In this document: in pieces, positions 33,070 to 36,828 of the stretch
How positions within the stretch are numbered: the first letter of the stretch is position 1
Layout: every line of letters starts with the position of its first letter
Origin: Afipia sp.
GTDB lineage: Bacteria; Pseudomonadota; Alphaproteobacteria; Rhizobiales; Xanthobacteraceae
DNA length: 52,948 bases
Assembly (NCBI GenBank): GCA_017474385.1
Contig: JAFVHU010000005.1
Coordinates: 1-52,948, forward strand
Reading direction: 5' to 3'
Position numbers and translations under genes: made by a program
Notes under the pieces: model-generated
Seen by the model: only the letters and a program-made list of their open reading frames with translations
Told to the model about the DNA's origin: nothing
Database searches by the model: none

Positions 33070-34155
33070 CTATCCGGTCGCCTTGGCAACGGCGGCGTCA
33101 TCGATACCGACGGACCGCGCGGTTGCCGTGATGGAATTCCAGGTCTCTTCGGTGAGCGGCACACCGTTCTTGGTCCGCTCCGCACGCGTTGCCGCTTCCG
33201 GCTCGCCCGGAATCAGAACCGCATCGTGGCCCTGCGCCAGCTTGCTGTCCTTGAAATAGGCGATATAGCGCGCGACCTCGCCGTCGAAGAAATGCGCGGG
33301 ATCGACGACCTTCGGATCGATGAAGATTGCCAGCATGCCGTTGGAGAAACGCCGGTCGGTCTTGGTCGCACCGTTGCCGGTCAGCGCGCCGCCGAGCAGT
33401 TCGCACATCAATGCAAGGCCCGAACCCTTGTGTTCGCCGAACGCGCGGATCGCACCCTTGCCTTGCGCATGAACACGCGGCCCGTCCGTATCATACGGCC
33501 CATAGAGAACGTGCGGATCTTCGCTGAGGCTGCCATCCTGATCGACCAGCGCGCCCTTTGGCAGTTTCTTGCCGCCGCGGCTCGCCACCATCACCTTGCC
33601 CTCGGCCACGATGGAGGTCGCGAAATCCAGCACCACCGGCCCCTGACCCGGACGTGGAATGCCGACGCAATACGGCGCCGTGGAGAGCTTGCGCGCGACG
33701 CCGCCGTATGGCGCAACCAGCACCGAGCCCGCCGCGTTGACGAAAAAGATTGAGACCAGCCCCTCCGACGCCGCCATTTCCGCCCAGTCGCCGACGCGCC
33801 CGAGATGGCCGGAATTCTTCAGCGTCATCGCCGAAAGACCAATGGCCTTGCACTTGTCGATCCCGACTTTCACAGCCTGCGGTGTCACCGTCTGTCCGTA
33901 GCCGAAGCCGCCATCGACCACCGCGATCGACGGTGTGTCGACCACCAGCTTGATGGTCTGGTCGGGAATGATCGCTCCTTCTTTCGCCCATTTCACATAC
34001 TGCGGCACGCGGATGACGCCGTGGCTGTCATGACCGGTGAGGTTCGCCGTGGTGAGATAGCTAGCGATGCGCTCGGCTTCAGTCTTCGAGGAGCCTGCGT
34101 GCGAAAAGATATCGGCGACGAAGCTGATGAGCTTCTGGGAGTTGATTGTAACCAT
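33070..34155 (-). CDS. Ldh/YiaK family malate/lactate/ureidoglycolate-type dehydrogenase
   Basis: The 361-residue protein belongs to the NAD(P)-dependent Ldh_2 family, whose fold differs from classical lactate dehydrogenase. Hallmarks are GHDSHGVIRVPQY near residues 44-56, the KNSGHLGRVGDWAEMA block, and HKGSGLALMCELLGGALTG. Family substrates include malate, sulfolactate, ureidoglycolate and diketogulonate. With the adjacent aldolase it could reduce the aldehyde or keto-acid product. The ATG at 34155 is used; the open frame to 34224 would read through the palindrome. The palindrome ends only 5 bases before this ATG, so the leader is probably structured. Confidence 0.87.
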   Translation of the reverse strand: MVTINSQKLISFVADIFSHAGSSKTEAERIASYLTTANLTGHDSHGVIRVPQYVKWAKEGAIIPDQTIKLVVDTPSIAVVDGGFGYGQTVTPQAVKVGIDKCKAIGLSAMTLKNSGHLGRVGDWAEMAASEGLVSIFFVNAAGSVLVAPYGGVARKLSTAPYCVGIPRPGQGPVVLDFATSIVAEGKVMVASRGGKKLPKGALVDQDGSLSEDPHVLYGPYDTDGPRVHAQGKGAIRAFGEHKGSGLALMCELLGGALTGNGATKTDRRFSNGMLAIFIDPKVVDPAHFFDGEVARYIAYFKDSKLAQGHDAVLIPGEPEAATRAERTKNGVPLTEETWNSITATARSVGIDDAAVAKATG

Positions 34156-34160
34156 GAGAC

Positions 34161-34235
34161 CTAGCGCCCTGTATCCGACGTTTGCTTCACTTCGCAGCAC
34201 CCTCCGAGCAAACGTCGGATACAAAAGGGCGCTAG
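34161..34235 (-). repeat. 75-bp palindrome with CTAG ends, element 1
   Basis: The outer arms CTAGCGCCCT (34161-34170) and AGGGCGCTAG (34226-34235) pair perfectly. Three unpaired bases (34223-34225, AAA on plus, TTT on minus) follow, then a perfect 16-bp inner stem pairs GTATCCGACGTTTGCT (34171-34186) with 34207-34222 around a 20-base loop. Read on the minus strand it is CTAG-N6-TTT-stem, the same layout as element 2 but with different sequence. It lies directly before the Ldh-family start codon. Confidence 0.9.
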
Positions 34236-34248
34236 CAACTTTATTATT

Positions 34249-34322
34249 CTAGTGATCCTTTGGCTCTGTTCGTAAAGGTGCCTGCAAGAGATATCATACG
34301 AATGTCAGAGCCGGATCACTAG
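34249..34322 (+). repeat. 74-bp palindrome with CTAG ends, element 2
   Basis: CTAGTGATCC (34249-34258) pairs with GGATCACTAG (34313-34322). TTT (34259-34261) is unpaired, GGCTCTG (34262-34268) pairs with CAGAGCC (34306-34312), TGT (34303-34305) is a second bulge, and TTCGTA (34269-34274) pairs with TACGAA (34297-34302) around a 22-base loop. It faces element 1 across 13 AT-rich bases. The terminal TAG supplies the stop codon of livF, so its insertion or formation defined that gene's end. Confidence 0.9.
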
Positions 34323-35047
34323 CTAGCTGCCTTGGTATGGCCGCCTAGGTAAGCGGCTCTGATTGCTTCGTTGCTCCACAGTTCGTCAGGTTTACCGCCC
34401 AGAGCAAGGCGACCCGTTTCCAGCACGTAGCCGTGATCGGCAACGGACAGTCCCATTCGCGCATTCTGCTCGACAAGTAAAACTGTCGTGTCGCGGCGAA
34501 TTTCGGCAATGATCCGGAACACCGCCTGCACGATCACCGGCGCAAGGCCGAGCGACGGCTCATCGAGCAGCAGCAGCCGCGGCTTTGCCATCAGCCCGCG
34601 CGCCACCGCGACCATCTGCAACTGTCCGCCTGAGAGCGTCCAGCCGAGCTTGTCGGAGAATGCACGGATGTCGGGAAACAGATCAAACATCGCATCCGCT
34701 TCGCGCGACAGCTGCGCTTTCGCGACCCGGCGGTTCGACGCGCCGAGCATAATGTTTTCTTTCACGGTAAGACCGGGGAACACCCGCCGCCCCTCCGGGA
34801 CGTGCGAAATGCCGAGGCGCACGATAGCCTCCGGCCCCAAGCCGACGATGGAGTGGCCATCGAACAGGATCTCTCCGGCGGCAGGCTTCGCCAGGCCGGA
34901 AATCGCGCGCAGCGTGGTGGACTTGCCTGCGCCGTTGGAGCCGAGCAGCGTCACCACCTGCCCTTCATCCACCTTGAGCGAGATGCCGCGCAGCGCTTCG
35001 ATTTCGCCGTAAAGCACGATGAGGTCATTGATCTCGAGCAGGGCCAT
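34319..35047 (-). CDS. livF: Branched-chain amino acid-type ABC transporter ATP-binding protein (LivF), system 1
   Basis: The roughly 242-residue ATPase has Walker A GSNGAGKST, the signature LSGGQ, and Walker B LLLDEPSLGL, in the LivF form. GGAG lies 5 bases before the ATG at 35047, so an upstream GTG at 35053 is not needed. It begins two bases after the fused permease-ATPase ends. Its stop codon lies inside palindrome element 2. Cargo is unlikely to be an amino acid given the sugar-acid enzymes that follow, but that is inference. Confidence 0.93.
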   Translation of the reverse strand: MALLEINDLIVLYGEIEALRGISLKVDEGQVVTLLGSNGAGKSTTLRAISGLAKPAAGEILFDGHSIVGLGPEAIVRLGISHVPEGRRVFPGLTVKENIMLGASNRRVAKAQLSREADAMFDLFPDIRAFSDKLGWTLSGGQLQMVAVARGLMAKPRLLLLDEPSLGLAPVIVQAVFRIIAEIRRDTTVLLVEQNARMGLSVADHGYVLETGRLALGGKPDELWSNEAIRAAYLGGHTKAAS

Positions 35048-35049
35048 GA

Positions 35050-36828
35050 TCACTCCGTCCCGAGATAAGCGGAAATAACGTCAGGATGCTGGAGCACCGC
35101 CAGCGATTCTCCGTCTGCAATCCGCTTTCCGAAGTTCAACACCGTGATGTGCTGCGCCGCCTCGCGAACCAGCGTCATGTCGTGATCGATGATCAGAATG
35201 GTGAGCCCCTGAGCCGCGATGCGTTTGAGCAGGTCATGCAGTTCGACCTTCTCACTGGAATTCAATCCCGCCGCCGGCTCATCCAGCAACAATAGCGTCG
35301 GATTTCCCGCCAGCGCACGTGCGATCTCGATCAGGCGCTGATGACCGTAGGAGAAACTGGAGACAAGTTCATTGGCGCGTCCGCCGAGCCCAACAAATGT
35401 CAGAGCTGACATCGCGCGCTGCGTCAGCGCATCCTGACTGCCCTCGCCGATCAGCGTATTGCCCGGACGCTCCGCACCGATCACCACGTTTTCCAGCGCC
35501 GTCATCGAACGAAACAGCCGGATGTTCTGGAAGGTACGACCCAGTCCCGCCGCTGTGCGCTGATGCGCAGGCATGTCGGTCACGTCGGTCCCGTCGAGCA
35601 CGATTTTGCCCGCGGTTGTCTTGTAGAGGCCCGACAGCATGTTCAGCGTCGTGGTCTTGCCGGACCCGTTGGGCCCGATCAGCGCATGCACGCTGCCCCG
35701 GCGCACGGAAATGTCCACTTTGTCGACGGCTTTCAGGCCGCCGAAGTGTTTCGACAGGCCCGTGACCTCGATCACCATGTCGCCGCCGGTCTTTGCCGGC
35801 ACAAGTTGCAGCGCGGGGCTCGCGACGTGAGGTGGAGCTTTCGCGCGCCACTTGGTGATGACGTCCTGTACGAACCCCCAGATGCCGTCCGGCATGAAGC
35901 GCACGATCAGAATGACGAACAGTCCATAGATCGCGAGATAAAGCCCCGGGATGTTTTTGAGGAAGCGCAGCCATTCCGGGATCAGAATCAGCAACCCGGT
36001 GCCGATCACAGCACCGATCGGCGATCCGACACCACCGAGCAACGCCATTGTGAGAAAGACGATCGACTCCGCGAATGAGAACTGATCCGGGCTGACATAG
36101 GAGAAGCCACCGGCGAACAGTCCGCCACCGATCCCGCCGAGCAAGGCGGAAAGCGCAAACGCCGCTACTTTCGTGCGGAAGATGTCGATACCCGCGACGC
36201 CCGCGGCGAGTTCGTTGTCACGCACCGCGCGCATGGCGCGGCCGATCCGCGTGTCCGGTAGGTGCCAGACGAGATAGCCGATCACCGCAAGCGCGGCGAC
36301 GCAGAACGCCAGAAACGACTGCTGCGACTGGAACAGCGCCGGGCGGCCGATTTTCGAGATACCGTCGGGACCGCGCGTCAGCCAGATTGCGTTGATCATC
36401 ACCAGCGTCACGATCTGCTGGAACGAGATCGTCACCATGGCGAGGTAATGGCCGCCGAGCTTGAGCGTGCTCATGCCGAGGAGCGCGCCGGCCGCCAATG
36501 CGAGCAACGAGCCCGCAACAAGGCAGATCCAGAAATTGATCTGGTAATCGGCAGTCCCGAGGCCGACGGCATAGGCACCCAACCCGAAGAACGCCGCCTG
36601 CGCCAGGTTGATCTGCCCGCACAGCCCGAGCACGACCGTCAGGCCGAACACCGCGATGGCGAACGTGGCCGCTTGCATCAGGATATTGAGGACGTAACCG
36701 TCGAAGCTCATGGTCGCTGCGGCGAACACAGCGATCGCGGCGACGATAAAATATGGCAGGTGTCGCAGCACCAGCGGCGTCGAGCGCAAGGTCGCGGTGA
36801 CAGGTATGTTCTGGCTCGGCATGCTCAT
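35050..36828 (-). CDS. livM-livG: Fused LivM-LivG: ABC permease and ATP-binding protein in one chain, system 1
   Basis: This 592-residue chain joins a LivM-type permease (about residues 1-330, multiple helices, with the NAIWLTRGPDGIS block and the GGVGSPIGAVIGTGLL segment) to a LivG-type ATPase (about 350-592: GPNGSGKTT Walker A, FSYGHQRLIEIARAL in place of the LSGGQ signature, LLLDEPAAGLN Walker B). Such fusions are known in rhizobial Liv systems. The start overlaps the livH stop in ATGA (36828-36825). The second Liv system in this window keeps the two parts separate. Confidence 0.92.
   Translation of the reverse strand: MSMPSQNIPVTATLRSTPLVLRHLPYFIVAAIAVFAAATMSFDGYVLNILMQAATFAIAVFGLTVVLGLCGQINLAQAAFFGLGAYAVGLGTADYQINFWICLVAGSLLALAAGALLGMSTLKLGGHYLAMVTISFQQIVTLVMINAIWLTRGPDGISKIGRPALFQSQQSFLAFCVAALAVIGYLVWHLPDTRIGRAMRAVRDNELAAGVAGIDIFRTKVAAFALSALLGGIGGGLFAGGFSYVSPDQFSFAESIVFLTMALLGGVGSPIGAVIGTGLLILIPEWLRFLKNIPGLYLAIYGLFVILIVRFMPDGIWGFVQDVITKWRAKAPPHVASPALQLVPAKTGGDMVIEVTGLSKHFGGLKAVDKVDISVRRGSVHALIGPNGSGKTTTLNMLSGLYKTTAGKIVLDGTDVTDMPAHQRTAAGLGRTFQNIRLFRSMTALENVVIGAERPGNTLIGEGSQDALTQRAMSALTFVGLGGRANELVSSFSYGHQRLIEIARALAGNPTLLLLDEPAAGLNSSEKVELHDLLKRIAAQGLTILIIDHDMTLVREAAQHITVLNFGKRIADGESLAVLQHPDVISAYLGTE

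Follow-up and report, generated by a model that had tools for sequence, protein, structure and literature searches.

Several described systems, as presented in the sections of the papers drawn on here, resemble in part the element discussed below. RUP, a 107-bp repeat unit of pneumococcus, has ends like those of IS630-Spn1 and, like the present element, is small, devoid of genes and present in multiple copies, with IS630-like ends that pair in the predicted structure (PMC3049150). It differs in its sequences and host group, and a twin-hairpin dimer with a bulge on the inner arm is not mentioned in the sections of PMC3049150 used. The Correia element (NEMIS) of Neisseria is also a MITE of intergenic DNA. 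Transcripts can be cut at its paired terminal repeats, which can also affect nearby genes (PMC10969869). The TA target presumed for the present element, duplicated on insertion, has its counterpart in IS630/ISY100 (PMC2170065), and the title of a work cited in that paper names a preference of IS630 for the TA in CTAG. These insertion sequences differ in being autonomous, about 1.1-1.2 kb long in the relatives examined, and in having no hairpin arms. REP, BIME and REPIN sequences share intergenic inverted palindrome dimers with complementary variation in the stems, but they carry a GTAG or CGTC tag and have units of 20-40 bp, the GTAG types being linked to tyrosine transposases (PMC3733652, PMC3116915). 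Finally, Br-REP1 and Br-REP2 of Bradyrhizobium are intergenic palindromic repeats from the same bacterial family; they have other consensus sequences, and the term CTAG is absent from the text of PMC5082802 that was searched. No description of the present MITE family was found in the literature covered, which was open-licence PubMed Central. The Correia element is set apart by its description, as it has one pair of terminal repeats, whereas two hairpins are present here.

The locus compared with these systems lies in a window of 52,948 nucleotides from Afipia sp., between an Ldh-family gene and a livF-like ABC transporter gene (both names are those given by an earlier, sequence-only reading of the window). 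It is very probably one copy of a non-autonomous IS630-type MITE, an inverted dimer of a hairpin module of about 75 bp. This reading is preferred because 15 relatives lack the element at the orthologous site and because the outer arms of the family match IS630 ends. The element covers 34161..34322 (162 bp from outer CTAG to outer CTAG; 34164-34319 between both outer TAs; positions are unstranded unless a strand is given). It contains no transposase gene and is too short to encode one. Hairpin 1 (34161..34235) and hairpin 2 (34249..34322) are joined by a 13-nt AT-rich linker (34236..34248), whose length is 11-14 nt in every one of the 117 copies that were parsed strictly. Both palindromes have the arms and coordinates that the sequence-only reading had assigned to them, but its division of the locus into two elements does not hold, as the hairpins are halves of one 162-bp unit.

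In hairpin 1, the outer arms CTAGCGCCCT and AGGGCGCTAG (34161-34170 and 34226-34235) are 100% complementary, as are the 17 bp of the inner stem (34170-34186 and 34207-34223). The 3-nt bulge of its inner arm is held in a run of four A (34223..34226, plus strand), on the same side as in the other twins, while its outer (left) arm (34161..34186, plus strand) is bulge-free and is presumed to be the left terminal inverted repeat. In hairpin 2, the outer arms CTAGTGATCC and GGATCACTAG (34249-34258 and 34313-34322) are also 100% complementary, the inner arm carries a TTT bulge (34259..34261, plus strand), and the outer (right) arm (34297..34322, minus strand) is the presumed right terminal inverted repeat. 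Hairpin 2 is not fully paired, however, as it has a second 3-nt bulge, TGT (34303..34305, plus strand). Alignment with the orthologs in three other genomes (G007, G024 and G017) indicates that this bulge exists because three stem bases (ACA) that the orthologs retain on the inner arm are missing from the window copy. The fold of 34150-34335 is far more stable than those of dinucleotide shuffles (z of -7.98 and -8.41 for the two strands), with 0 of 200 shuffles as good.

The left outer TA (34162..34163) is presumed to be one half of a 2-bp target duplication, on the basis of the empty sites and the IS630 precedent (PMC2170065), and the right outer TA (34320..34321) the other half. The latter lies within the stop codon of the livF-like gene (34319..35053, minus strand). 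This TAG, the complement of 34319-34321, is in the right CTAG of the element and is thus supplied by it, as had been proposed. Hairpin 1 likewise starts 5 bases from the ATG of the Ldh-family gene (complement of 34153-34155), as previously noted. That gene occupies 33070..34155 on the minus strand when read from this ATG (34155-34153), and its mechanically called open reading frame extends to a TTG at 34224, within hairpin 1.

The element is part of a repeat family with sharp boundaries. When 34155-34330 was searched against its own genome, an assembly of 162 contigs that totals 4.48 Mb and is 84% complete, 25 matches were obtained, the region itself included; 17 of the others, 73-84% identical to the window copy, come close to full length over both hairpins. 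In 21 copies aligned with 60-160 bp of flank, similarity is lost at the outer CTAGs. A pattern search also revealed a second own-genome subfamily that shares the layout and has a different hairpin 2. In total, 52 own-genome places were collected, including the window and a few partial ones (L024, L051); the extraction pattern overlooked several copies in L053-L061, of which some, but not all, were included afterwards. A covariance model was then built on 94 full copies (alignment A1). Of 115 parsed placements, 17 had failed a pairing or length filter that itself favours paired arms, and four of the 98 passing ones (L035, L039, L105, L116) were omitted; loci L146-L174 are outside the alignment.

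A search of relatives with such a model, as the sequence-only reading had advised, found the layout in all 29 Afipia genomes searched, with 4 to at least 99 matches each, numbers that may count both strands of one place. Across the order, under stricter filters and with the best nine matches per genome scored, 52 of 297 sampled genomes and 27 of 123 genera have matches. The suspected family of small elements with preserved architecture is thus supported, since further copies with this layout do occur in related genomes, their sequences vary, and they are missing from some orthologous places. A pattern scan of named genomes yielded at least 109 stretches, mostly from Afipia, Bradyrhizobium and other Hyphomicrobiales; among the pattern matches listed, the few other hosts are Rhodopila, an unassigned proteobacterium and a contig labelled Chloroflexi. 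In a MAG contig with the latter label (L167:1534), the left and right arms of the family are about 180 bp apart, which may reflect transfer or mis-binning. Twin-hairpin elements of the CTAGTCACC subfamily are also found on large plasmids (L176:3001-3190 and other Roseibium/Labrenzia plasmids), eight of the nine plasmid records matched being from Roseibium or Labrenzia. A phage collection queried with the single copy L119 gave no match.

The architecture of the family is conserved. When 944,689 bases from loci with elements were scanned for CTAG-like hairpins, 64 twin pairs were detected, together with 61 other hairpins, most of which belong to twins with a partner outside the strict criteria; one mononucleotide shuffle of these bases gave no such hairpins. 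A strict parser, which could place the bulge on the inner arms only, kept 117 of 198 distinct copies. Of these copies, 113 have an outer stem of 9-10 bp in hairpin 1 and 114 in hairpin 2, and an inner stem of 15-17 bp is present in 109 and 104, respectively; most loops measure 19-25 nt. When the bulge was allowed on either arm, it fell on the 3′ (inner) arm in 64/64 left hairpins of the strict twins and on the 5′ (inner) arm in 62/64 right hairpins, the other two having none. Altogether, a 2-5 nt bulge on one arm is present in 316 of 321 distinct hairpins, and the orientation of the loop relative to it is the same in 310 of these 316, with reference loops taken from the same set. Given this consistency of bulge side and loop orientation, the two halves are interpreted as a single module that is present twice, in inverted orientation and with diverged sequence. 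Among the loci matched across the order, 20 were chosen, of which two belong to another genus of the same taxonomic family and 18 to nine other families. They have the layout with largely different stems, and 17 of them pass the strict parser; the best fold of one (L321) pairs its two halves with each other, and hairpin 2 of another (L327) has no bulge.

The loops also resemble each other. Loop 1 aligns with the reverse complement of loop 2 with local scores of 5.9, 6.6 and 5.9 in three groups, as compared with 3.7, 3.9 and 4.2 for shuffled loop 2. Kissing loops were considered and rejected, because loops of the same element are no more complementary than those of different elements (2481, 1029 and 778 of 5000 permutations reached the mean). 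As the complementarity is not element-specific, the resemblance is attributed to common descent of the two halves. There are also unusual arrangements. For instance, L313 (G126:C6:173331-173780) consists of two complete elements head-to-tail with one CTAG common to both, L075 is a chain of three hairpins, and in L145 hairpin 1 is joined directly to a reversed hairpin 2; possibly, one element was inserted into the end CTAG of another in these cases. In addition, L111, L123 and L146 are single mini-hairpins of about 70 bp, formed by the left and right outer arms of the family without a bulge.

Empty sites at orthologous positions, which the sequence-only reading had proposed to look for, were found at several loci. 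Twenty-nine genomes were queried with the window flanks fused at a single CTAG. The locus was empty and contiguous in 15, filled in 4 (the own genome, G007, G024 and G017) and without a usable match in 10. In the 15 empty genomes, only 0-3 bp lie between the Ldh-family start and the livF stop, which is TAA or TAG in 8 and TGA in 7. The element is thus exactly at the junction of these genes, with the TAG stop coming from its right CTAG. The L012 copy is missing from 8/8 relatives aligned, which have CTAG or CTAA at the site; one of them is 94% identical over 404 bp, and comparison with L135 gives a clean single-CTAG empty site. The L042 copy is present in 5 genomes and absent from 7 that were aligned, which read CTGC, TTGC or TTGA. 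At further empty sites, the bases are CTAG, CTAC, CTAA or degraded versions of these. The place orthologous to L042 is occupied in one genome (L329, G006:C2:316100-317800) by different DNA of about 1.27 kb, which includes an open frame of 936 nt. Single CTAG, CTAA or CTAC empty sites agree with a TA duplication. Nevertheless, TA is also part of the stem, and the duplication is cleanly seen at few loci because several empty sites lack TA (7/15 at the window locus have TGA, and the L042 place has TG). From these sites and from the ends described below, we infer mobilisation in trans with duplication of the TA.

The outer arms of the family are equal to the ends of certain IS630 elements. An IS630 transposase gene on a Roseomonas plasmid ends in CTAGTGTCCCGAATCCGAAGTTCGC, which coincides with 25/25 bases of the left arm in many copies of the element; the inverted partner of this end is 2.5 kb away, with other transposon DNA between. 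The family left arm matches the Roseomonas end in 22/22 bases; the left arm of the window copy itself shares 16/22 bases with this end. In Bradyrhizobium, IS630 relatives of about 1.2 kb have ends such as GTGTCCTGAGTCACAAGTTCGC and GTGTCCTGAACCAGAAGTTCGC after C-TA, another (L178) has the end GTGTGGTGGACCAGAAGTTCGC, close to the other arm of the family, and the matching ends sit at C-TA-G. A Hyphomicrobiales genome that carries elements (L101, L158) encodes a transposase that shares 94% identity with its Bradyrhizobium counterpart, and the ends there match the family arm in 20/22 bases or are similar to it. DDE_3 and helix-turn-helix domains were found in the IS630 transposase. The ends differ in other IS630 relatives, and no insertion sequence was found with an end matching the right arm of the subfamily to which the window copy belongs. 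Together with the empty sites and the model matches, these ends support the suggestion of the sequence-only reading that this is an IS630/Tc1-like miniature element targeting CTAG. Counting against it, an intact close transposase flanked by matching ends was not seen in Afipia: any match at all occurs in 5 of 29 genomes, the best having 41% identity and lying near a contig start. Thus, the copies there may be old or may have been moved otherwise. Only 12 of the 25 element-bearing genomes reached through named loci have any transposase match. Three IS630 DDE_3 candidates in the own genome were discarded, as none has matching ends; one is near a contig end.

According to the preferred reading, a transposase of the IS630 family (Tc1/mariner-type DDE), provided in trans, would use the two outer arms as terminal inverted repeats. 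The enzyme would bind the two bulge-free outer arms and move the dimer to the TA in CTAG-like sites, here a stop codon. The inner arms would carry the repeat of the outer arms too, but lengthened by 2-5 bases at about 10 bp from the end. These additional bases would alter the spacing between the GTGTCC end block and a GAAGTTCG-like block, the putative contact blocks of the transposase. It is proposed that the altered spacing disables the inner ends and that both hairpins consequently move together. Silencing of the inner ends by the bulge is a weaker inference, tentative and somewhat on the doubtful side; the bulge-free mini-hairpins would fit it, but they are few.

As a MITE, the element would be of a known, IS630-related type; what is unusual is that the hairpins tend to stay paired while their sequence changes. 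In an alignment based on sequence only, 96.9% of cells pair, as compared with 84.5% in shuffles, 37 of 52 pairs have changed on both sides (21.1 in shuffles), and there are 583 double-change cells (175.7 in shuffles). When the partners are slid by 1-3 columns, pairing falls to 22-36%. The TA positions behave similarly: among 196 hairpins, TA is on both arms in 122, changed to inverted complements in 47, changed on one side only in 22, changed to non-complementary bases on both sides in 4 and changed as a direct repeat in 1. Between the two outer ends of one element (n=98), both have TA in 51, a direct-repeat change in 6, inverted complements in 4 and another state in 37. Pure target duplication therefore does not fully explain the TA ends, since most changed ones are inverted complements of their partner in the same hairpin. 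Provided that the outer TA derives from the target, as it does in IS630, these double changes most likely occurred after insertion.

Orthologous copies allow changes after insertion to be followed, and 23 such sets, with 60 copies altogether, were found. Since copies were selected by stem pattern or model score, the stem/loop rate over all rows is biased, and reliance is placed on the two sets found by their flanks (window and L042) and on hairpin 2 in ten other pairs. In the window set, pairing is kept in 14/14 double changes over six comparisons, and stems diverge by 0.074 per site, loops and linker by 0.199 and flanks by 0.175. In the L042 set, the respective values are 0.048, 0.143 and 0.079, and 10/10 double changes (two distinct events) are paired, next to 28 single changes. 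For hairpin 2 alone, stems diverge by 0.060 and loops by 0.131, the stems being slower in 8/10 pairs; L033/L109 and L093/L102 go in the opposite direction.

This covariation might be purely mutational, if template switching between the arms during replication kept them paired with no selection involved. Double changes at the TA pairs are what such a process would give, and L170:4679-4751, with a bulge-free right-hand hairpin and a flipped loop, resembles footprints of template switching, as described in the part of PMC8794818 used here, or of inversion. Nevertheless, stems that evolve 2-3 times more slowly than loops are unexpected from unbiased repair alone, and the bulge persists in 316 of 321 hairpins; both observations argue for selection, and repair as the sole cause is thus rather unlikely. 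A host-functional structured RNA (a 3′-end stabiliser, attenuator or terminator) spread by copying is a distinctly poorer candidate, and improbable. Its very stable folds on both strands and slower-evolving stems would suit such a role, as would the proximity to gene ends, since 35 of 56 neighbouring 3′ ends of genes are within 20 bp of an element, and, over all rows, G-U pairs outnumber A-C mismatches on the plus strand of the element itself (88 vs 61). On the transcribed strand, however, the 45 copies with one assignable direction show 20 G-U against 30 A-C mismatches, that is, no G-U excess, which also favours template switching. Moreover, 33900-34600 contains 0 intrinsic terminator-like sites (a G+C-rich hairpin followed by a T run), and Rfam gave two matches at the locus up to E 10, both far below the gathering score. 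On these grounds, the structured RNA offered as an alternative by the sequence-only reading was not upheld.

The gene context was obtained with a home-made gene caller. Among 71 copies with enough flank, 0 are inside called genes, 44 are between tandem, 19 between divergent and 6 between convergent genes, and 2 are at an edge; of the neighbouring 5′ ends of genes, 20 of 82 are within 20 bp of an element. The absence of enrichment between convergent genes (6/69 placed copies vs 75/521 background gaps) also speaks against a structured RNA. REP and REPIN sequences, in general, are inverted palindrome dimers; a Y1 (RAYT) tyrosine transposase recognises the hairpin with its bulge and moves them in single-stranded form. 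The inverted-dimer layout, the bulged stem, the tetranucleotide at the foot of the hairpin and the location near gene ends all recall them. Even so, kinship with this group is very improbable: the own genome (84% complete) has no PF01797 (Y1_Tnp) match, the tag is CTAG, paired within the stem, instead of a GTAG-type tag outside it, the units are longer (about 75 bp, as against 20-40 bp), and the family has outer arms equal to IS630 ends. Some of the features used in this comparison come from the sections of PMC3733652 consulted.

The preferred reading thus remains an IS630-type MITE, even though the pairing of the inner arms and the covariation after insertion exceed what a simple MITE requires and count against it. 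With a cause in RNA unsupported, selection on DNA structure and template-switch repair remain, possibly together, as the means by which pairing is held at the DNA level; after insertion, the hairpins would be kept largely paired as DNA by either or both. It is also conceivable, although unlikely, that the folded DNA is itself functional, the twin hairpin being read as a cruciform or single-strand structure by the transposase or a host protein, and copies across the order being retained under selection as DNA-structure sites. The structure so read would comprise the fixed bulge on the inner arm, the oriented loop and the conserved linker. If true, it would mean a transposon family defined by secondary structure and not by sequence.

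At the window locus, insertion would have introduced two strong hairpins, within 163 bp, between the start codon of the Ldh-family gene and the livF stop codon. The local consequence would be a separation of the two genes. An effect of both hairpins on expression, as claimed by the sequence-only reading, is plausible; the insertion may lower or uncouple the expression of the two genes. More generally, this is a large MITE family in the order of Afipia, Bradyrhizobium, Nitrobacter and Rhodopseudomonas. It provides a clean natural data set on what keeps long hairpins paired during drift, be it selection or template-switch repair, and the orthologs, the empty sites, the TA pairs within the stems and the asymmetric bulge as an internal control make this question testable. 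The bulge, in turn, suggests a simple means by which a dimeric transposon may silence its inner ends.
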